Assembly: GCA_027067855.1 (NCBI GenBank)
Contig: JAMOUX010000026.1
Span: 80,473 to 144,472 of the forward strand
DNA: 64,000 bases
Origin: Candidatus Fermentibacteraceae bacterium
Lineage (GTDB): Bacteria; Fermentibacterota; Fermentibacteria; Fermentibacterales; JCC-6
Direction: 5' to 3'
Shown: positions 3,333 through 63,180 of the stretch, piece by piece
Numbering within the stretch: position 1 is the first letter of the stretch
How the letters are laid out: every line of letters begins with the position of its first letter
Made by a program: the position numbers and the translations under genes
The notes under the pieces: model-generated
What the model saw: only the letters and a program-made list of their open reading frames with translations
Databases searched by the model: none
Told to the model about the DNA's origin: nothing

Positions 3333-3791
3333 ATGTTGATTTCCACAAGGAGCAGGTATGCGCTCCGGGCACTGGCACGGATGGTGATGGTAGCCGGTGA
3401 AAATGGAGGGGTTCCCGTATCCCTCTCGCTGGTATCCGGGGAGGAGCGGGTTTCCATAAGGTACCTGGAACAGATTTTCGGTATCCTCCGGGCGGGAGGG
3501 CTTGTGAAAGGCAAGCGGGGGCCCGGCGGCGGGTACGTCCTCGGCAGGGAGCCCGGCGAGATAACCGTCCTGGAAGTCGTGGAAATGCTGGAGACGGATT
3601 TTCTGCCGGCTTCGTGCATGGCGGAGGGAACCACCTGTTCCCCTGAACCGGGCGGAGAGAAAAGAGGATGTTCCCTGGAAAAGACGTGTGTTACCAGGCC
3701 CCTGTGGTTTATCATGAAGAACATGTACTGTGACTTGATGGGAAGTATTACCATTGAGGACCTGGTGGAGAGAAGGGTGGATAGGAACTAA
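3333..3791 (+). CDS. Rrf2 family regulator (IscR-like)
   Basis: 152 aa. N-terminal winged helix of the Rrf2 family: STRSRYALRAL at 4-14, the recognition helix region IRYLEQIF at 42-49 and the beta-wing GPGGGYVLGRE at 63-73. The C-terminal part has cysteines at 95, 102, 113 and 119; three of them could hold an Fe-S cluster as in IscR, though spacing is longer than the classic C-X5-C-X5-C. It heads an operon with nifU and nifS, so it very likely senses Fe-S status and controls cluster assembly. GGAGG lies 10 bases before the ATG. Confidence 0.85.
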   Translation: MLISTRSRYALRALARMVMVAGENGGVPVSLSLVSGEERVSIRYLEQIFGILRAGGLVKGKRGPGGGYVLGREPGEITVLEVVEMLETDFLPASCMAEGTTCSPEPGGEKRGCSLEKTCVTRPLWFIMKNMYCDLMGSITIEDLVERRVDRN

Positions 3792-3792
3792 G

Positions 3793-4380
3793 ATGTGGAA
3801 TTATTCCAAAAAACTGATGGAACACTTCATGAATCCCAGGAATTCCGGCCAATTGCCGAATCCCGACGGCCGGTCGGAAGTAGGTTCACCCCAGTGCGGA
3901 GATGCGATGACACTGGACATCGAAGTGGACGACGACGACAGGATAACGGATGTCCGGTTCATGACCTTCGGGTGTGCCGGGGCGATTGCATCGGCATCGG
4001 CGCTCACGGAAATAGTTAAGGGGAAAACCCTGGATGAAGCGTTGTCGGTGACCAACGAAATGGTCGTCGAGTATCTGGGAGGCATGCCGGAGGAGAAGTT
4101 TCATTGCTCGGTGATGGGACACGAGGCCCTGGAGGGGGCCGTACGGGACTTCAAGAGGAAGAGGAACACGGTGAGGAAACACCTGGAGGCCATGTTCCGG
4201 GATCTTTCCTGGGATTCCGCCGGTGTTCTCGGTGGAACTCCACCCGGAATCGCTCATGTTCACCCTTCCAGGGTTTTGCTGGAATTCCCCGGTGATCCCG
4301 GCGAAGGCGCCGTGGAAGCCGTAAGCCGGGAACTGTCCGGAAGGGTGGGCAGGACGGTGGAAGTGAAGGTGAAGCGATGA
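3793..4380 (+). CDS. nifU: NifU/IscU-type Fe-S cluster scaffold with C-terminal extension
   Basis: 195 aa. The IscU-type scaffold domain (about 1-125) has the three cluster-binding cysteines C35 (PQCGD), C61 (FGCAG) and C105 (FHCSV) and the conserved Asp37. A cluster is built here from sulfur delivered by the downstream cysteine desulfurase. An additional C-terminal part of about 50 residues (from about 150) looks like a small alpha/beta domain; it lacks cysteines, so it is not the CxxC Nfu domain of full NifU. Start at 3793 lies one base after the Rrf2 stop, behind GGAACTAAG; the gene overlaps nifS by ATGA. Confidence 0.88.
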   Translation: MWNYSKKLMEHFMNPRNSGQLPNPDGRSEVGSPQCGDAMTLDIEVDDDDRITDVRFMTFGCAGAIASASALTEIVKGKTLDEALSVTNEMVVEYLGGMPEEKFHCSVMGHEALEGAVRDFKRKRNTVRKHLEAMFRDLSWDSAGVLGGTPPGIAHVHPSRVLLEFPGDPGEGAVEAVSRELSGRVGRTVEVKVKR

Positions 4381-5525
4381 AGGCTTATCTGGATAACAAC
4401 GCTACCACCATGATCGCGCCGGAGGTGTTGGAGGAAATGATGCCCTTCCTTACTCATCGGTATGGAAATCCTTCCAGCTTTCATTCCTTCGGCGGAGAGG
4501 TTATGAAGGAAGTGGAGAAGGCCAGGAGCAGGGTAGCCCGTCTGATCGGAGCTGAACCGGAAGAGGTCTTTTTCACATCGGGTGGCACCGAGAGTGACAA
4601 CACCGCCCTCCGGGGAGGATGTTCGATCAATCCCCTACGTTCCGGGCTCCTGGTGAGCATGGTGGAGCATCCCGCGGTTCTGAATACGGCGAAGAAGATG
4701 ATGCGGGACGGCACCCCCGTGGGATTCGTGCCCGTAGGAGGGGACGGACTCCCGGACATGGCCGCATTGGCTGAAATGCTGGTCCCGGAAACCGGGTTGG
4801 TCTCCATCATGACGGCCAACAATGAAACCGGGACCAAGTTTCCCCTGGCGGAAGTGGCGGAGATAGTTCACCCGTCGGGAGTTTTGCTTCATACCGACGC
4901 GGTGCAGGCACCGGGCAAGATGGAACTGGACGTCAAGGCCATGAATGTCGACATGCTCAGTCTCTCGGCTCATAAATTCCACGGTCCCAAGGGAGTCGGG
5001 ATACTTTACGTAAGAAGGGGTGTTGACCTTCCTCCTTTCATAGTCGGCGGACACCAGGAGTCGGGAATGAGGGCGGGAACCTATAACGTTCCCGGTATAG
5101 TCGGCATGGGTAAAGCGGCTGAGATGGCGCTGGAGGAACTGTCCGCGGTCGCCGGGAATATGAAGGCGGCCAGGGATCGCCTGGAGGAGGGCATCCTCGA
5201 AAGTTGTCCCGGAGCTTCGGTGGTTGCCCGGGACAGCGATAGACTGCCCAATACCTGTACTGTTCTCTTCAAAGGGGTGGAGAGCGAAGCGGTGATGACC
5301 ATACTGGACATGGAAGGGATTTGCGTTTCATCGGGTTCGGCGTGCAGCACGGGAGAGATCGCCCCGAGTCACGTACTCACCGCCATGGGCATAGATCCCA
5401 TGACGGCGAATACGGCGATACGTTTCAGCCTCAGCAGGTATACGTCCGGGGAAGAGATCGACGTTTTGCTCGACATTCTTCCTGGAATAATAGAGAAGCT
5501 GCGCAGGATTTCACCCTACGCTTGA
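4377..5525 (+). CDS. nifS: Cysteine desulfurase, NifS/IscS class I
   Basis: 382 aa, usual length. Pyridoxal-phosphate enzyme that converts cysteine to alanine and carries the sulfur as a persulfide to the scaffold. Visible: DNNATT at 6-11, SGGTESDN at 68-75, His98 stacking on the cofactor (VEHP), the PLP lysine K200 in LSAHKFHGPKG, and the catalytic loop SSGSACSTGE with Cys323. Last gene of the Rrf2-nifU-nifS operon, start overlapping the nifU stop by 4 bases. Convergent with the next gene across a 12-bp gap in which no terminator is visible. Confidence 0.93.
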   Translation: MKAYLDNNATTMIAPEVLEEMMPFLTHRYGNPSSFHSFGGEVMKEVEKARSRVARLIGAEPEEVFFTSGGTESDNTALRGGCSINPLRSGLLVSMVEHPAVLNTAKKMMRDGTPVGFVPVGGDGLPDMAALAEMLVPETGLVSIMTANNETGTKFPLAEVAEIVHPSGVLLHTDAVQAPGKMELDVKAMNVDMLSLSAHKFHGPKGVGILYVRRGVDLPPFIVGGHQESGMRAGTYNVPGIVGMGKAAEMALEELSAVAGNMKAARDRLEEGILESCPGASVVARDSDRLPNTCTVLFKGVESEAVMTILDMEGICVSSGSACSTGEIAPSHVLTAMGIDPMTANTAIRFSLSRYTSGEEIDVLLDILPGIIEKLRRISPYA

Positions 5526-15359: not shown

Positions 15360-16256
15360 TCACGGATATTCGATAAGGGTACGCAGCCTGTTCCATATGT
15401 CCGCCACGGCCGAGGCCGCCGGACTTTCCGGGAAGGCCGCGGTGACTGGAACTCTCATGGACAACGCCTTCATTACGTTTTCGTCGAAAGGGATGTCGCC
15501 GAGGAAGGTTATCCCCTCGCCGGAACAGAATTCCACGATTTCATTCCGCCTTTTCGGGTTGATGTCGCTCTTGTTGATGCAAACCGCCGGTTTCACGTGG
15601 AAGAGGGCCAGGGTTTCCGCCACCCGAACGAGGTCGTGGATGGATGATATTCCCGGTTCCGTGGTAATCACGGCTGCGTCAACCCCGGAGCAGGATGCGA
15701 TAACGGGACATCCCACGCCTGGAGGGCCGTCCACGAGAACCAAGTCGCAACCCGTGGATACACATGCTTCCGCAGCCTCCTTCCGGACTATGGAAACCAA
15801 CTTTCCGGAGTTTTCTTCTCCCGCGTTCATTTCGGCATGAAAGAGGGTTCCGTAAGGAGTCGAGGACCTGAACCACTTTCCAGCCACGGGCCTGTAATTG
15901 GATATGGCCTTCTCGGGACACTGGTATATGCAGGTGTTGCAACCTTCGCATCGCGACTCGTCCACACCGTAGGTTTTACCGGAAGGCTTCGGCTCGATCA
16001 CGGCGCCGAACCTGCATACCTCGAAACACCTGCCGCAAGCGGTACAGGCTTCCCCGTGAATTACGGCCTTGAATCCTCCGGTGAAGTCATGTTCCTCCAA
16101 CTTCTCCGGATCGAGAAGGAGGTCCAGGTTGGCGGCATCGACGTCGGCATCCGCAAGCACCAGGTTCATCCCGGCGTGTGCCAGGTGAGCCAGGGCTGCG
16201 GTGAGAGAGGTCTTTCCCGTTCCTCCCTTACCGCTGAGAATGACTACCTGTTTCAC
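15360..16256 (-). CDS. MinD/Mrp-type ATPase with internal 2x[4Fe-4S] ferredoxin domain (Orp-like)
   Basis: 298 aa. A deviant Walker A GKGGTGKTS at 10-18, a DADVDAANLDLL switch region, then an inserted dicluster ferredoxin: C-X2-C-X2-C-X3-C motifs in CTACGRCFEVC and CEGCNTCIYQCP (about 70-115), then the ATPase core resumes with DLVLVDGPPGVGCPV. Such CbiA/MinD-ferredoxin proteins occur in pairs in ORP (orange protein) operons of Desulfovibrio and other anaerobes. The start codon is GTG at 16256, overlapping the previous stop as GTGA. Last gene of the operon; no terminator is visible behind it. Confidence 0.85.
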   Translation of the reverse strand: MKQVVILSGKGGTGKTSLTAALAHLAHAGMNLVLADADVDAANLDLLLDPEKLEEHDFTGGFKAVIHGEACTACGRCFEVCRFGAVIEPKPSGKTYGVDESRCEGCNTCIYQCPEKAISNYRPVAGKWFRSSTPYGTLFHAEMNAGEENSGKLVSIVRKEAAEACVSTGCDLVLVDGPPGVGCPVIASCSGVDAAVITTEPGISSIHDLVRVAETLALFHVKPAVCINKSDINPKRRNEIVEFCSGEGITFLGDIPFDENVMKALSMRVPVTAAFPESPAASAVADIWNRLRTLIEYP

Positions 16257-17116
16257 GAGGATGTCTCCTTCCGGATCCTTTCAAGGAGTTCGGCGAAAAG
16301 CGGTCGGTATCCGGGGAGACCGTCCGTGAGGGCCACTCCTTCGGACAGGGTTTCCGCTATCCTCCTGTCCATGGGTATCTTTGCCAGGACCGGCAGCTCT
16401 TTTTCCCTGCAGAATCCTTCCACATCATCGCTTCCGGCACCGTAGCGATTGATCACTACGCCGGCGGGTATGCCGAGTTGGTCCCTCACCACGTTGACCA
16501 TGGCAGCCAGATCATGGAGCCCGAAGGGAGTGGGCTCGGTGACCAGTACGACATAATTCGCGGGTCTTATCGTTTCCACCACGGGGCAGGAGGTTCCGGG
16601 AGGAGCATCCAGGATGACGGTTCTTTCCTGCGAGTCGTCGAGAAATCGATCCAGCAGAGACGAAATTATGGGTACCGCCATGGCCTGGCCGGTATTGAGG
16701 ATTCCCCCGGCGAAGTCCACTCTTTCGGATGTACCGCTTTCCAGGTAGCCCGAGACGTGGAGTTCTTCCGTGACGGCATTTCTGGGACAGGCCAGGGCGC
16801 AACCTCCGCATCCATGACACATATCCTTGAATACCAGGACTTTTTCACCGGCTACGGCGATCGCATGCCAAGCGCAGACTTCGGCGCACCTTCCGCAGAA
16901 ATCGCATTTTCCCGGGTCCACCACGGGGACCCGGACCCCGGTTTCGATTTTCGCCTCGTACTCGATATTCAGGAACAGTCCGGCATTGGGTTCCTCTACG
17001 TCACAGTCCAGTAGCAGGGGTTTCGGTCCGGAAGTCCCGGCGGCGGCCAGCGCGAGACTCACCGCCACCATGGTTTTACCGGTACCGCCCTTGCCTCCGG
17101 CAACGACAATGACCAT
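16253..17116 (-). CDS. MinD/Mrp-type ATPase with internal 2x[4Fe-4S] ferredoxin domain (Orp-like), paralogue
   Basis: 287 aa, same architecture as its downstream neighbour: GGKGGTGKTM at about 7-16, DCDVEEPNAGLFL, ferredoxin insertion with CDFCGRCAEVC and CHGCGGCALACP, then TVILDAPPGTSCPV. The two ATPases probably form a heterodimer that loads or releases the metal-binding NifX-type proteins encoded upstream. Start at 17116 is preceded by AGGAAGTAAG and lies 5 bases after the zinc-ribbon stop; the frame remains open upstream but covers that other gene. Confidence 0.85.
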   Translation of the reverse strand: MVIVVAGGKGGTGKTMVAVSLALAAAGTSGPKPLLLDCDVEEPNAGLFLNIEYEAKIETGVRVPVVDPGKCDFCGRCAEVCAWHAIAVAGEKVLVFKDMCHGCGGCALACPRNAVTEELHVSGYLESGTSERVDFAGGILNTGQAMAVPIISSLLDRFLDDSQERTVILDAPPGTSCPVVETIRPANYVVLVTEPTPFGLHDLAAMVNVVRDQLGIPAGVVINRYGAGSDDVEGFCREKELPVLAKIPMDRRIAETLSEGVALTDGLPGYRPLFAELLERIRKETSS

Positions 17117-17121
17117 TCGTC

Positions 17122-17280
17122 TTACTTCCTGGCCAGGGAGGCTCCGCACTTGGGACAGCGGATGGCATGACACGGTTGGCCGGCACGGTGTTCCTGCCCG
17201 TATCCGCACGACAGGCACACGCAAAATCCTCCGGGTCCCGTGCCTCCGCCGGGGCTCCTGTTCGTGCCTTTCCCCTTAAT
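17122..17280 (-). CDS. Tiny zinc-ribbon protein with apparent ATT start
   Basis: 52 aa, too short for ordinary ORF calling. After a Gly-rich head (about 1-18) the chain reads as a zinc or iron ribbon: Cys at 20, 22, 25, then 37, 42 and 45 (CVCLSCGYG and CPKCG). Similar small ribbons accompany NifX-MinD clusters in other anaerobes. In frame there is no ATG, GTG or TTG between the upstream stop and the ribbon, but AGGAG sits 6 bases before an ATT codon at 17280, so ATT is the best start; a base-call error turning ATG into ATT is the alternative. It fits exactly between its neighbours. Confidence 0.75.
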
Positions 17281-17291
17281 GCTTTTCTCCT

Positions 17292-17732
17292 TTACGGTTT
17301 CGTTTTTCCGTTCGTCAGGCGGCCTGTCGCGTCATTCGGTCGGAGGCGGGTGTGAGATTCCGTTCCCGAAGAATGTTCGATGCTTTCCCTGCATGGTGAA
17401 GCTGCGGCCGATTTTCCCGACAGGAATGTTTCCACCACGCTTCTGACGGTGCCGGAAACCCCGGAGACACACTCGATTCCGGCCCCGGAGAATGCATCGA
17501 TGGCTCTTCGTCCCATTCCCCCGGCCAACATGACCTGTGCTCCCAGGTCGACTACGAAGGATGGCACCTGTCCGGGCGAGTGGCTTTCGTAGAAGGGATT
17601 CCTTACCGCTTCAGAAGCTATTATCTCCTCTTCCCGGACATCCACCAGGATAAAGAAGGGACATCGTCCGAAATGGCGGCTCACCGGACTGTCCAACCCT
17701 CGGTCGTCGTCGGACGAAACGGCTATCCTCAT
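17292..17732 (-). CDS. NifX/NifB-family dinitrogenase cofactor-binding-like protein (Orp-like)
   Basis: 146 aa. The N-terminal 105 residues form the RNase H-like NifX/NifY fold: [27 protein letters not shown] start, conserved [13 protein letters not shown] loop and a Cys in IECVSG. Proteins of this family bind metal-sulfur cofactors, for example the Mo-Cu cluster of ORP in Desulfovibrio. The last 40 residues are polar and probably disordered. Overlaps its upstream paralogue by ATGA; GGGGAGGAAAA precedes the start. Confidence 0.82.
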
Positions 17733-18223
17733 TTTTCCTCCCCCGGCAGTTCCGCTATTTCTTCCAGCAATTTCTCGACCTGTCCCCTGAGTTTCCCGAG
17801 CTTGGAAGTCAGTTGGTCGAGATGCCGGTCTGTGCTTTCCCCGGAAATTTCCCTTTCGGGAATCGGTTTGCCGTGGCCCGGCGAACCGGACGAGGAAAGG
17901 GGTTGAAGTTTTCCTTTTTCGAAGTCACGTACCGCGTCCTTCACGGTACCCTTTCCGGACGAGTAACATGGAAGGGACGCAGCCTCGAGTACTTCGAACG
18001 CCTTTGGTCCCAGTTTGGGAGCAAGAAGGATATCGGGTTCGTGAGCCAGAACGAGTTGGGCCGCCTGTACGCCGGCCCCGCCGGTCTGGTTCCCGGCCGG
18101 ATTTTCGACGACTTCGAATGAGAAATCCTCGGTATCCACCAAGATGAAGTAGGGAGTTCTTCCGAACACGTCACCGACGGGTGAATCCAAGGTCGCTTCC
18201 CGGGCGCTCACCATCACCTTCAT
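17729..18223 (-). CDS. NifX/NifB-family protein with C-terminal coiled coil (Orp-like)
   Basis: 164 aa. A NifX-type domain (about 1-110: MKVMVSAREATLDSPVGDVFGRTPYF, NQTGGAGVQAAQLV, LAPKLGPKAFEVL, CYSSGKGTVKDAV) followed by a predicted coiled coil (about 133-160, HLDQLTSKLGKLRGQVEKLL). The coiled coil may pair with the similar tail of the neighbouring DUF5320 protein, holding the complex together. Overlaps the DUF5320 gene by ATGA. Confidence 0.8.
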   Translation of the reverse strand: MKVMVSAREATLDSPVGDVFGRTPYFILVDTEDFSFEVVENPAGNQTGGAGVQAAQLVLAHEPDILLAPKLGPKAFEVLEAASLPCYSSGKGTVKDAVRDFEKGKLQPLSSSGSPGHGKPIPEREISGESTDRHLDQLTSKLGKLRGQVEKLLEEIAELPGEEK

Positions 18224-18570
18224 TGCTTGTTTCCACGCTTATCTGCGTTCTTGATCCGTTCGATTCCGCCGGCGATCCTTTCCAGGATCTCCGAAACGAA
18301 ATCCAGTTGCCGCTTGATGCTTTCCGTATCAGTTTCCCGGGAGTATCCCGGTCGGCACCGGTGCGGGTGATGCATCCGGCAGGGAATATCGGCTTCATAG
18401 TATCGATGTCGGTAACCACCGCCCCGACAGGGTCTTGCATGATGTCCGCAACGACCTTCCCGGCCGGGAGAGGTCACGTATCCTCCTTCGTGATGACCGG
18501 AGCATCTTCCAACGCCTCTTCCGCTGCGGGGTCCTTCTCCCAAGGGTCCGGTTCCGTCTCCTCCGGGCAT
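18220..18570 (-). CDS. DUF5320 protein
   Basis: 116 aa. The start MPGGDGTGPLGEGPRSGRG is the signature of DUF5320, a short Gly/Arg-rich protein regularly found next to NifX-MinD (ORP-type) clusters. A middle part rich in Cys, His and Arg (RCSGHH, RCGHHARPCRGGG) may bind metal, and the C-terminus is a short coiled coil. AAAGGAGAAATC precedes the ATG; 12 bases follow the PadR stop. Function unknown beyond the association. Confidence 0.8.
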   Translation of the reverse strand: MPGGDGTGPLGEGPRSGRGVGRCSGHHEGGYVTSPGREGRCGHHARPCRGGGYRHRYYEADIPCRMHHPHRCRPGYSRETDTESIKRQLDFVSEILERIAGGIERIKNADKRGNKQ

Positions 18571-18582
18571 GATTTCTCCTTT

Positions 18583-18984
18583 CTAATCGTTTTCTCCGTG
18601 GAAAATTTCCATGTGGCGTCTGTACTTCTTCAAAAATGTCTGCAGGATATGGCGTGTCTTCTTCAGTTCTTCCACCCATGATTTCAGGTAGAGGTTTCCC
18701 TCGTCGGTGAGGGAGTAGACCCTGCGGGCGGGACCGGCGTCACCCTCGTTCCACCTGGATTCGACCAGATTCCTTTCCTCCAGACTCCGAAGCATCCTGT
18801 AGATGGTGCTGGAGTCCGCCGGGACTTCATGGAAACCGAATTTTTCAAGGTCTTCCAGAAGTTGGTAACCATGAGATTCCTTCCCGTGGAGAAGGAGTAG
18901 CAGGCATGGTTCGAGGAAGCCGTATATGCTCCGTCTTCTACATCTTTTCCTGTTCTCGCTTCCGCATCTTCCCCGACCCGGCAT
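18583..18984 (-). CDS. PadR family transcriptional regulator of the ORP-like operon
   Basis: 133 aa. N-terminal head with Cys and many Arg (MPGRGRCGSENRKRCRRR), then the PadR winged helix: GFLEPCLLLLLHGKESHGYQLLEDLEKFG, DSSTIYRMLRSLEERNLVESRW, and the wing GPARRVYSLTDEGNLYL, with a C-terminal dimer helix. Start at 18984 is set by AGAGGAA; the frame is open for 21 more codons, but those would cover the operator. First gene of the operon, directly behind a promoter with a dyad, so autoregulation is likely. The N-terminal cysteines may sense metal or redox. Confidence 0.85.
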   Translation of the reverse strand: MPGRGRCGSENRKRCRRRSIYGFLEPCLLLLLHGKESHGYQLLEDLEKFGFHEVPADSSTIYRMLRSLEERNLVESRWNEGDAGPARRVYSLTDEGNLYLKSWVEELKKTRHILQTFLKKYRRHMEIFHGEND

Positions 18985-18998
18985 AGTGTTCCTCTCAT

Positions 18999-19019
18999 CT
19001 ACATGCAAAATGCACATAG
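18999..19019 (-). promoter_or_regulatory. Dyad operator before padR
   Basis: A 21-bp near-palindrome of form CTA-N2-TGCA-N3-TGCA-N2-TAG, 14 bp upstream of the padR start and one base downstream of the -10. Likely the PadR binding site blocking initiation. Confidence 0.65.
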
Positions 19020-19047
19020 ATGATAATAGGATTTCGGCAACGGTCAA
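19020..19047 (-). promoter_or_regulatory. Promoter of the ORP-like operon
   Basis: On minus, TTGACC (19042-19047) and TATCAT (19020-19025) at spacing 16. A housekeeping promoter, whereas the known Desulfovibrio orp operon uses sigma-54; no -24/-12 element is present here. Confidence 0.65.
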
Positions 19048-19281: not shown

Positions 19282-22011
19282 ATGACCTTAGAATCCCTGT
19301 CCGGACGTAAGGACAATATCTCCGCACCGGAAGACAAACTGCGTCTCTTTCGTTCGAAACTCCAGGCTTTGATGAAACTCAGCAACGATTTCATAGCGAT
19401 CCTGGACAGGAACGGTATCATCGTCGACCTGAGCGAAAACGCCGCCGTTCTTCTTGAAACGGACGTAAACGACGTCATCGGGAAGTTCCACTGGGAAGAT
19501 TTCCTTCCCGAGGAAGAGAAGCCCAGGCTTGCCGGTTATTTCTTCAGCAGGGCCAACGGCACGGGAGACCCGCCTTCTTCCTATACGTTGAGGCTCAAAC
19601 TTCCTTCGGGAGAGCGGTTCATGAGAGCCAAGGTGGACTTCATTCCGGGCACTGAAGACAGGATAGTCGTCCTCAAGGATCTCAGCGAGGTCGTGGAGGA
19701 AAAGAGAAGAACGGCGGAAAGCGAGGAGAGGTATCGGGCGGTGGTGGAGAACACCAACGACGGCATCCTCATATGCACCATGGAGAGAACCCTCTTCGCC
19801 AACACGAGTTTCTGCAACATGACCGGTCTTCCCAGGGAAGAAGTCTACATGCTGTCGCCCATGAGGTTGTTCCATGATTCCGACAGGAATAAACTGGAGG
19901 AACTCTTTCCCGTGGTTGGCGATCGGGCGGGGCACCGCGGGGTTTTCGAGGTGAGGGTGAGAAAAAGAAGCGGATTCCTTCCCGCCGAGCTGTCTTCGGT
20001 TGCAATAAACTACAGGAACACCGAAGCGGTGCTTTTTTCCGTGCGTGATCTGACCCGTAGAAAGGAAGCCGAAAAAAAGCTGAAAGAGCAGCACGAACTG
20101 CTGCAGGCCATAGTCGATAATTCCCCGGTGGGAATTTCCGTGTACGACAGCAAGGGAACTCTTCTCATGTTCAACTCATCCTGGGCGACCATATGGGGCA
20201 AGACGCCGGAGCAGATAGAAGAATTGAAAGTGCCGAAGAAGGAGTTGCGCATCGACGACAGCGACTCCTATCTGGGAGATTACCTGGAACAGGTGGTCAA
20301 GGTATACCGAGAAGGCGGTTATCTCTACATACCCATCCTGAAGACGGACAACTTTCTTTCCGGTGCGGCGGAATATATATCCCATCACTTTTACGCCCTG
20401 AAGAACGAAGATGGTACCGTGGACAAGGTGATCGTTCTCACTCTGGACCTCACCGAGACCCTGAAGGTCAAGGATGAACTGAAAGAAACCAGGGACAGGT
20501 ACGATCAGCTCTTCAGCGAGGTTCCCGTGGCCTTGTACAGGACGACTCTGGATCCCGACAGCAAAATCATTTCGGCGAATCCCAAGATGAAAAAACTTTT
20601 CTTCGATCCGGAGAATCCGGGTGAAATCGACGGAGTACGCGTCAGTGATTTGTACCGGAATCCTCAGAAACGCAGGGAATTCCTGAAAAAACTCGAAAGG
20701 GAGAAAGAGATCCAGGGATTCGAGATAGAATTTCGCAGGATGGACGGATCCACGTTCCTGGGCAGCGTATCCGCCCGCATGGTCAAGGGGCGAAACGGCG
20801 GACAAGATTACATAGAGGGAATGATTCTCGATGTTACCGAGCAGAAGAAGAGGGAAGAGGAACTTCTTAAGATAGAACAGCTGGAGACCATCGGCACTTT
20901 GGCGGGGGGGATAGCCCATGATTTCAACAACCTTCTCATGGCGATACAGGGTTCCATCTTCCTTGCGATGGAGGAGAGGGACCCGGAAAAGATCCGCCGG
21001 CGGCTCGAGGAGGCCGAGAGTGCCGTGGAGGAGGCGGCGGTGCTCACCGGACGACTCCTGACCTTCACCAGAGGCGGGGCGCCCATGAGGAAACTGGTTG
21101 ACGTGGAATCGTGCGTGCGTGAACCGATCCTGTTCTGCCTGAGCGGATCCCTGGTCAAGGCGGAGTTCCGTTTCGACGACAATCTTTTTCCTATATATGC
21201 CGACCAGGAGCAGGTATCCCAGGCTGTGAGGAACATAGCCTTGAATGCGGTCCAGGCCATGCCCGACGGGGGCAGGATCACGGTGACCTGCGGCAACGTC
21301 ATCCTCGAAAAGGGAAACATCCGGGCGCTGAATCCCGGGGAGTATGTAAAAATATCGATTCGTGACGAAGGCCCCGGTATACCGCCGGATGACATGAGAA
21401 AAGTGTTCAATCCGTACTTCACCACCAAGCCGGACGGGACCGGCCTGGGTCTTGCCACCAGTTTTTCCATAATCAAGAAGCATTCCGGGGCGATAAGCGT
21501 TTCTTCCGTGGAGGGCGAGGGAGCGGAGTTTACCATATATCTTCCCGCGGAAACCGGGGCCGTCGCCGGAGAGGAAGATGAGAAGAAATGGCCCCGGGGT
21601 GGGGAAGTGGGGGCGCTGAGCATCCTTATCATGGATGACGACGACAAAGTCAGGAAGGTCCTCAAGGAAATGCTCCTCAGTCTGGGTCACGACGTAGAGG
21701 AGAGCAGAAACGGTAACGAGGTGGTGGAAATTTACGGAAAGAGGCTGGAGGAAGGAAGACCTTTCGATCTGGTGATATTGGACCTGACCGTGTCCGGCGG
21801 AATCGGCGGGGAAGCCGCCGTGGCCTCCCTCAAGGAGATGGATCCGGATGTTAAGGCCATAGTCTGCAGCGGGTACACCAATAACCCGGTGTTGGCTGAC
21901 CACAAAGAGTACGGGTTTTCGGGGAGTCTCGTCAAACCGTTCAGTTTTTCCGCCCTGGAGGAAGAGATACGATCCGTCATGGGGGCCGCCGGCCTGTTCG
22001 AAAGGGGCTGA
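19282..22011 (+). CDS. Cytoplasmic multi-PAS hybrid histidine kinase with receiver
   Basis: 909 aa, no membrane segment. Order: about four PAS domains (roughly 25-135, 148-265, 275-400, 405-525), HisKA with the phospho-His in GGIAHDFNNLL, HATPase with N-box NIALNAVQAM, G1 DEGPGIPP and G2 GTGLGLATS (about 640-755), then a receiver (about 785-900) with acidic pocket MDDDD, phospho-Asp in LVILDLT and Lys in LVKPFS. The receiver keeps its key residues but no output domain follows, so it may phosphorelay or self-regulate. Signal unknown. AAGAGGA precedes the ATG; the phosphomannomutase starts 2 bases after the stop. Confidence 0.92.
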   Translation: MTLESLSGRKDNISAPEDKLRLFRSKLQALMKLSNDFIAILDRNGIIVDLSENAAVLLETDVNDVIGKFHWEDFLPEEEKPRLAGYFFSRANGTGDPPSSYTLRLKLPSGERFMRAKVDFIPGTEDRIVVLKDLSEVVEEKRRTAESEERYRAVVENTNDGILICTMERTLFANTSFCNMTGLPREEVYMLSPMRLFHDSDRNKLEELFPVVGDRAGHRGVFEVRVRKRSGFLPAELSSVAINYRNTEAVLFSVRDLTRRKEAEKKLKEQHELLQAIVDNSPVGISVYDSKGTLLMFNSSWATIWGKTPEQIEELKVPKKELRIDDSDSYLGDYLEQVVKVYREGGYLYIPILKTDNFLSGAAEYISHHFYALKNEDGTVDKVIVLTLDLTETLKVKDELKETRDRYDQLFSEVPVALYRTTLDPDSKIISANPKMKKLFFDPENPGEIDGVRVSDLYRNPQKRREFLKKLEREKEIQGFEIEFRRMDGSTFLGSVSARMVKGRNGGQDYIEGMILDVTEQKKREEELLKIEQLETIGTLAGGIAHDFNNLLMAIQGSIFLAMEERDPEKIRRRLEEAESAVEEAAVLTGRLLTFTRGGAPMRKLVDVESCVREPILFCLSGSLVKAEFRFDDNLFPIYADQEQVSQAVRNIALNAVQAMPDGGRITVTCGNVILEKGNIRALNPGEYVKISIRDEGPGIPPDDMRKVFNPYFTTKPDGTGLGLATSFSIIKKHSGAISVSSVEGEGAEFTIYLPAETGAVAGEEDEKKWPRGGEVGALSILIMDDDDKVRKVLKEMLLSLGHDVEESRNGNEVVEIYGKRLEEGRPFDLVILDLTVSGGIGGEAAVASLKEMDPDVKAIVCSGYTNNPVLADHKEYGFSGSLVKPFSFSALEEEIRSVMGAAGLFERG

Positions 22012-62311: not shown

Positions 62312-62367
62312 TCTTGGGAATCAATGGATATGTTCCGTTCCGAAAAAAACCAGCAGAGGAGATTTTC

Positions 62368-63180
62368 ATGGCGCAAGAAATCACCGCCGAAGACGTCCTG
62401 TTCAGCCAGGAGGTCAGGTACACGCTGGAGTACGATCCCAAACCGGCGATCCGCGGGTACACGGGAGAAATATTGCGCGTGGATCTTACGAAGGAATCGG
62501 CGTCCATCCTGCCGGTCACCGACAAGATGAAGGAAGTGTTCACCGGTGGTAAGGGTTTCGACCTCTGGCTGTTGTGGAACGAGGTCACTCCGGATACGAA
62601 GTGGGACAGCCCGGAGAACGCGATCTGCATTGCATCGGGACCCCTGGGCGGCACCACTTCCTTCGCCGGTTCCGGTAAATCCATAGTCACCACCATTTCT
62701 CCCACGACCGGGTCGGTGGTGGATTCCAACGTCGGCGGGCATTTCGGTCCCCTCCTTAAATTTTCCGGTTTCGATGCGATGGTCATCAGGGGCAAGGCCC
62801 GCGAGGAGACGGTGATTTTCATAGACGGAATGTCCGGTAAGGTCAACATCATGACTTCGCCCGATCTGCCCGTGGATTCTCATCTGGCCGCCGAGATCCT
62901 GGCCGATATGTATTCCGATGACGATGACGACAAGAGGCACGTATCCACCGTCTCAGCGGGGTCGGGGGCGGATCACGCCTGGATAGGCTGCCTCAATTTT
63001 TCCTGGTGGGACTGGCGCAGGCGCACCATGCGGTTGAAACAGGCCGGCAGGGGAGGTACCGGAACCGTTTTCCGCAACAAGCAACTGAAGGCGCTGGTGG
63101 TTAAGGCACCGCGTACCAGGCCGGTATGGAAGATGAAGACCTCCTCCACGGGTATTGAAGGAGGTGTCTCCGGTGATTGA
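62368..63180 (+). CDS. Aldehyde:ferredoxin oxidoreductase N-terminal domain as a separate protein
   Basis: 270 aa. After a 45-residue lead (ITAEDVLFSQEVRYTLEYD) comes the AOR N-terminal domain that binds the tungstopterin: GYTGEILRVDLTKES, GGKGFDLWLLWNEV, ASGPLGGTTSFAGSGK, VDSNVGGHFGPLLKFSGFDA and QAGRGGTGTVFRNKQLKALVV. Family proteins are about 600 aa; here the chain stops just past the domain end with no frameshift sign, because the next gene begins 8 bases before its stop. So the catalytic/Fe-S half must be elsewhere, perhaps beyond the window. GAGGAGATTTTC before the ATG. Confidence 0.85.
   Translation: MAQEITAEDVLFSQEVRYTLEYDPKPAIRGYTGEILRVDLTKESASILPVTDKMKEVFTGGKGFDLWLLWNEVTPDTKWDSPENAICIASGPLGGTTSFAGSGKSIVTTISPTTGSVVDSNVGGHFGPLLKFSGFDAMVIRGKAREETVIFIDGMSGKVNIMTSPDLPVDSHLAAEILADMYSDDDDDKRHVSTVSAGSGADHAWIGCLNFSWWDWRRRTMRLKQAGRGGTGTVFRNKQLKALVVKAPRTRPVWKMKTSSTGIEGGVSGD

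Follow-up and report, generated by a model that had tools for sequence, protein, structure and literature searches.

What is a seven-gene cluster that couples a PadR-family regulator to two small NifX-fold proteins and two ferredoxin-bearing MinD-like ATPases for, and is it the ORP system of Desulfovibrio in another organism? The cluster lies at positions 15360-18984 of a 64,000-nucleotide stretch of contig JAMOUX010000026.1 (assembly GCA_027067855.1) from Candidatus Fermentibacteraceae bacterium, hereafter the window. A reading made from the letters and open reading frames (ORFs) of the window alone (the sequence-only reading) had likened the cluster to the ORP operons of Desulfovibrio. Here we place the locus by its gene content, promoter, phylogeny and recurrent neighbours. 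Rather than a new system, it is a variant, in regulation and in phylogeny, of a module already known and widespread: it resembles the Desulfovibrio ORP operon but sits on another branch and is governed by a simple on/off switch of its own. We propose, with about even confidence, that the operon regulates itself and encodes an anaerobic complex for the assembly and carriage of metal-sulfide clusters, most likely iron-sulfur (Fe-S) ones.

The operon and its promoter

The seven ORFs form a one-strand array (Table 1) in the order padR, DUF5320, NifX-1, NifX-2, zinc ribbon, MinD-Fd 1 and MinD-Fd 2, all of them open and collinear, with short or overlapping junctions that would fit one transcript for all seven genes. 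Six of the seven proteins score above their Pfam cut-offs, and the full cluster, padR included, recurs in the genus, with padR as the first gene throughout the genus loci and in a genome of another family of the same order (G006). The arrangement is not a matter of chance, since loci across the genus keep almost the same gene order; the cluster is a real operon, and the gene order given by the sequence-only reading stands. So does its regulator gene, whose PadR winged-helix domain scores 60.6 bits against a cut-off of 27. Both MinD-Fd proteins join a CbiA/ParA-type ATPase domain to 4Fe-4S ferredoxin motifs, and the deviant Walker and ferredoxin residues are invariant across the phylum in the MinD-Fd 1 alignment (A1). 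The zinc-ribbon protein is too short for a useful Pfam model match; its four Cys, Gly-rich N-terminus and position agree with its genus orthologues.

Upstream of padR is a sigma-70-like promoter (TTGACC-16-TATCAT, 19047-19020), as had been claimed, with 10 of 12 consensus matches; it is the best of four promoter matches, where shuffled sequences led us to expect 1.5. Its -10 box is overlapped by a 29-bp palindrome with 13-base arms and a 3-base centre; when the window's own sequence was shuffled 1000 times, a repeat as good arose in 4 cases. Another 15 genomes of the genus conserve both the promoter and the palindrome: over these 16 genomes (the window's included) the 27 central bases of the palindrome have a mean pairwise identity of 0.87, compared with 0.31 for the 35 furthest-upstream bases. 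The G006 genome likewise has a PadR and a repeat of matching layout. Even with up to 3 mismatches allowed, the genome holds no second copy of the palindrome. As the palindrome also overlaps the -10 box and is conserved with the promoter in the genus, PadR is most likely a repressor of its own operon, acting through this probable operator. A wider PadR regulon beyond the operon was considered and rejected on the same genome search. No sigma-54 element was found upstream of the operon with the pattern used; the sigma-54 factor itself (rpoN) is encoded in the genome, and the absence of sigma-54 control is therefore a property of the operon, not of the organism.

PadR-headed clusters with comparable sites occur elsewhere. 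In the Chloroflexota, two loci with an upstream padR (L037 and L039) each carry a distinct palindrome where -35/-10-like boxes suggest a promoter. Our literature search for PadR tied to NifX/MinD-Fd clusters turned up no relevant report. The PadR N-termini of L033, L039 and the genus loci L178-L193 have Gly/Arg-rich tails like the ones on the zinc-ribbon and DUF5320 proteins that these clusters also encode, and most members of the genus share a Cys pair around CxRR...FLEPC near the PadR N-terminus.

Table 1. Genes and control elements of the operon, in window coordinates
Feature	Position	Strand	Basis
padR-family regulator, 133 aa, Arg-rich N-terminal tail	18583..18984	-	PF03551 E 1.5e-16
DUF5320 protein, 116 aa, Cys/His/Gly-rich, helical C-terminus	18220..18570	-	PF17253 E 1.1e-15
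NifX-1, NifX/ORP-fold small protein, 164 aa	17729..18223	-	PF02579 (Nitro_FeMo-Co/NifX) E 3.9e-17
NifX-2, NifX-fold small protein, 146 aa	17292..17732	-	PF02579 (Nitro_FeMo-Co/NifX) E 2.6e-19
Zinc-ribbon protein, Gly-rich, ~52 aa (52-codon frame)	17122..17280	-	frame and four Cys read directly; genus orthologues
MinD-Fd 1 (Orp4 position)	16253..17116	-	GKGGTGKT deviant Walker A, two Cx2Cx2Cx3C ferredoxin motifs; clade MinD1
MinD-Fd 2 (Orp3 position)	15360..16256	-	GKGGTGKT, two ferredoxin motifs; clade MinD2
-35 box TTGACC	19042..19047	-	first five bases identical in 16 genus genomes, window included
-10 box TATCAT	19020..19025	-	promoter search, genus conservation
Probable PadR operator, inverted repeat TCATCTAYRTGCA-N3-TGCAYRTAGATGA	18995..19023	.	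overlaps -10 box; 11/13 arm positions

The zinc-ribbon frame has an apparent ATT start at 17278-17280, with an AGGAG ribosome-binding site ahead of it, where the genus orthologues have ATG; possible explanations are a rare start codon and an error in the assembly. Transcribed divergently from padR is a gene (19282-22011) for a hybrid PAS histidine kinase that includes a receiver domain. A DNA search for distant matches among plasmids returned none, and no nitrogenase genes are present among the window genes inspected, no genome search for nifHDK having been made.

Relation to the Desulfovibrio ORP system

The locus had been thought unusual for lying outside the sulfate reducers, and the genome indeed has no dsrA match above cut-off (best 21.8 bits against 392.85). 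Within the window's phylum, MinD-Fd genes are present in 38 of 42 genomes. A scan of the named genome collection with the MinD-Fd 1 alignment gave at least 314 confirmed relatives; the 80 kept from these, on which our distribution survey rests, span about twenty phyla, archaea included (among them Chloroflexota, Bacillota, Planctomycetota, Omnitrophota, Bipolaricaulota, Spirochaetota, Pseudomonadota, Methanobacteriota, Bathyarchaeota, Thorarchaeota and Heimdallarchaeota), and nearly all 80 loci have a second MinD-Fd gene and NifX genes alongside where the contig permits. With the core found in so many phyla, a cluster outside the sulfate reducers is ordinary, and the published name of the ORP complex, in a title cited in PMC3897727, itself describes it as anaerobe-specific.

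The likeness to ORP holds in part. The Desulfovibrio operons (orp1/orp2; DVU2103-2105 and DVU2107-2109, with the regulator DVU2106/OrpR) share with the window a MinD-Fd pair of the same two paralogue clades, a DUF5320-like gene and a NifX/ORP-fold protein. They are two divergent operons controlled by OrpR and sigma-54, whereas the window has a single operon under PadR and a sigma-70-type promoter, with an additional zinc ribbon and two stand-alone NifX proteins on other branches. MrpORP, the fusion of an Mrp NTPase with a NifX domain, is missing: the genome gives no match over our 450-bit cut-off, the best being an Mrp without a NifX domain on another contig. For comparison, ORP-type loci were obtained by an MrpORP search of 395 genomes from the phylum of G047, reached via a Desulfobulbaceae locus, of which 67 passed the cut-off. 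In two of these (L164 and L172), MrpORP and an ORP-type NifX lie on one strand and DUF5320-like, MinD-Fd 1 and MinD-Fd 2 genes on the other, with a PAS-sigma-54 activator between them; we take both loci as Desulfovibrio-type because of this layout and the description of ORP in PMC6345978 and PMC4641369. A gene of the DUF5320 kind, judged by eye, opens their MinD-Fd operon. The divergent arrangement around a PAS-sigma-54 activator, present in L164 and L172, is not found at the window operon, where padR comes first.

Phylogeny separates the two systems further. The two paralogue clades separate fully (100% support) in a tree built from 222 MinD-Fd proteins, and each holds both window and Desulfovibrio-type (Orp3/Orp4-type) members. 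Concatenated MinD-Fd trees group the window genus with Anaerolineae and one Chromatiaceae genome (99 and 100/100) and place the ORP-type pair elsewhere. The PadR-headed Anaerolineae/Chloroflexota clusters (L033, L037, L039) belong to the window's MinD-Fd clade (99-100 support) and resemble the window in their upstream PadR gene, NifX and MinD-Fd pair; they differ in operator sequence and in the order of the small genes. Other genera of the window's own phylum have MinD-Fd proteins in yet another clade, and a single vertically inherited cluster in the phylum was rejected, since forcing the 11 rows into a single clade lowered the log-likelihood by 241.6 units (p-AU 7.8e-65). Three loci of these other genera (L195-L197) share the MinD-Fd pair and NifX genes with the window but have an adjoining PAS-sigma-54 activator and -24/-12-like elements, clearest in L197 (TTGGCACCTGCCTTGCT). 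Read together, these trees and control regions make it likeliest that the cluster moved between lineages and exchanged its regulator; a possible alternative is that old copies were lost differentially.

The NifX proteins also branch apart from ORP. The solved structures nearest to NifX-1 are MTH1175 (3.9e-17), TM1290 (6.7e-15) and D. gigas ORP 2WFB (8.7e-12), and those nearest to NifX-2 are PH0822 (5e-29) and TM1816 (6.8e-26). In the NifX tree, NifX-1 lies near the level of MTH1175 and TM1290, outside a 26-row clade (97/83) formed by D. gigas ORP and the Orp8-type proteins of L164 and L172. The NifX-2 group is the sister of TM1816/PH0822 within one clade (98/88), and the MrpORP C-terminal domains form a separate clade (100/99). 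An NCBIfam match had suggested NifX-2 as a detached MrpORP C-terminal domain, an origin rejected by its placement with TM1816/PH0822. The tree has 125 usable columns and the solved proteins, MTH1175 among them, entered as fragments, so that its deeper forks are weak. The phylogenetic check proposed in the sequence-only reading, against ORP proteins or a clade of known, different function, thus cuts partly against ORP identity: NifX and MinD-Fd fall in other clades, but TM1816 and PH0822 are without established function, so that the tree distances the window from ORP and offers no other known function in its place.

A proposed iron-sulfide complex and its rivals

Around homologous clusters the recurrent neighbours, in numbers of loci, include FeoB (9), Fur (9), DtxR (5), DUF364 (9), DUF134 (22) and a metallo-beta-lactamase fold protein (23). 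Published expression points the same way: in D. desulfuricans, Ddes_1864-1867 (annotated as NifX, cobyrinic acid synthase, ferredoxin and NifX) fall together with FeoA, FeoB and flavodoxin on nitrate relative to sulfate (PMC5701242), and in D. alaskensis, Dde_3197-3199, which by number lie near the MrpORP gene Dde_3202, change together with feoA and flavodoxin (PMC10533852). In Allochromatium vinosum, expression of Alvin_1737-1741 is far higher with dissolved sulfide than with pyrite (PMC11267869). Taken together, neighbours and transcriptomes favour, but do not prove, iron and sulfide over molybdenum (Mo) or tungsten (W). One homologous locus (L167, 8032-9726 in G254) has a 565-residue ORF that fuses NifU_N, an Mrp/NUBPL NTPase and a NifX domain; read as one ORF, the fusion links an Fe-S scaffold with ORP-type proteins. 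In the window itself, a NifU_N scaffold gene adjoins a class-V aminotransferase (cysteine desulfurase-like) gene at 3754-5525, a candidate Fe-S source for the operon.

In the mechanism that we propose, an iron-sulfide intermediate would be held by the two NifX-fold proteins. The pair of MinD-like ATPases, both of which have two [4Fe-4S] sites and may be bound to the membrane or a cell pole, would draw on ATP and electrons to load this intermediate, move it or deliver it, with the DUF5320 and zinc-ribbon proteins as probable scaffolding parts. PadR, bound to the palindrome that covers the -10 box and the start region, would shut off its own operon until released by a signal, probably sulfide or Fe-S status. 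An Fe-S complex is suggested by the invariant ferredoxin and Walker motifs, the metal-sulfide-binding relatives of the NifX fold, the passage of Fe-S clusters from MrpORP to Orp3/Orp4 in vitro (PMC6345978), the iron-type neighbours and the published expression. We offer more speculatively, as a rather unlikely extension, that PadR senses sulfide, persulfide or Fe-S status directly through its CxRR...FLEPC Cys pair, and hence would represent a new metal-sulfide-responsive PadR class that replaced OrpR/sigma-54 when the cluster clade entered the lineage by horizontal transfer.

Several points weigh against an iron-sulfur role. The neighbour counts come without a matched genomic background, and because none was computed the enrichment of FeoB, Fur and DtxR is an impression; the Ddes, Dde and Alvin locus tags were equated with the window clades by annotation and gene order, not by sequence; and the window operon itself has no adjoining iron genes. 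The metal of the complex is inferred without a measurement in any close relative, and Mo and Cu are the metals in D. gigas ORP, which belongs to the same fold family. PadR-type repressors are a known kind, and the signal assigned here to the window PadR is our conjecture.

Among the alternatives, IssA-like storage, in which the NifX proteins would turn surplus iron and sulfide into a thioferrate-like mineral, or buffer them in that form, for the ATPases to mobilise, strikes us as improbable, if less so than the others. IssA of Pyrococcus furiosus, a metal-sulfide binding protein of an anaerobe and of the same fold family as the window NifX proteins, stores thioferrate and rebuilds the ferredoxin [4Fe-4S] cluster in vitro (PMC5524996). 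MTH1175, the best solved match of NifX-1, is drawn in the IssA figure of that study, the higher expression of the Alvin genes on dissolved sulfide would suit a buffer, and NifX-2 has a hydrophilic C-terminal tail past residue 110. However, the Gly-rich, aromatic and cationic C-terminal tail that defines IssA is on neither NifX, as judged from their tails read directly against the published description (PMC5524996), and the NifX tree did not include IssA itself. A true ORP complex, with a Mo-Cu sulfide cluster in NifX-1 and the MinD-Fd pair placing the division septum as proposed for Desulfovibrio, is somewhat less probable again: the shared MinD-Fd pair, DUF5320 and NifX/ORP-fold protein and the significant match of NifX-1 to D. 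gigas ORP speak for it, whereas the position of NifX-1 outside the ORP/Orp8 clade, the missing MrpORP and the lack of a divergent partner or adjoining sigma-54 activator speak against it, and the division role is only a hypothesis of its own authors (PMC4672049).

Redox-dependent positioning, with the MinD-Fd ATPases placing cell components and the NifX proteins as sensors, would accord with the MinD family of the ATPase domains and with the reported polar location of MrpORP (PMC6345978), but the operon has no positional partner of the MinC, MinE or ParB type and the conserved linkage is to cluster-binding proteins; we think it very unlikely. Least probable of all, to the point of being remote, is the handling of a Mo or W enzyme cofactor, which the sequence-only reading had considered plausible from proximity. 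At 58-64 kb the window does hold genes of the tungsten type, encoding a solute-binding protein, an ABC/TOBE ATPase and an AFOR_N protein, which would tie the operon to a transporter and an aldehyde ferredoxin oxidoreductase (AOR). They lie about 40 kb from the operon with many unrelated genes between, however, and do not recur beside its homologues: among the 105 other loci the window's solute-binding protein had no match and AOR a single one, and the neighbours and transcriptomes point to iron. The AOR gene itself (62314-63180) has the N-terminal AFOR_N domain only, the catalytic domains not being seen there, and is directly followed by a thioredoxin-like [2Fe-2S] ferredoxin gene.

A widespread anaerobic module

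Work on the ORP system has been confined almost entirely to Desulfovibrio, and its purpose there is not settled. What the present locus shows is that the MinD-Fd core of this system is widespread as a module of anaerobes and that, inside a single phylum, it comes under at least two interchangeable kinds of control. Through DNA binding and a ligand screen, the predicted operator offers a simple handle on the signal, and thereby the function, of a family that extends over many phyla without an assigned role.

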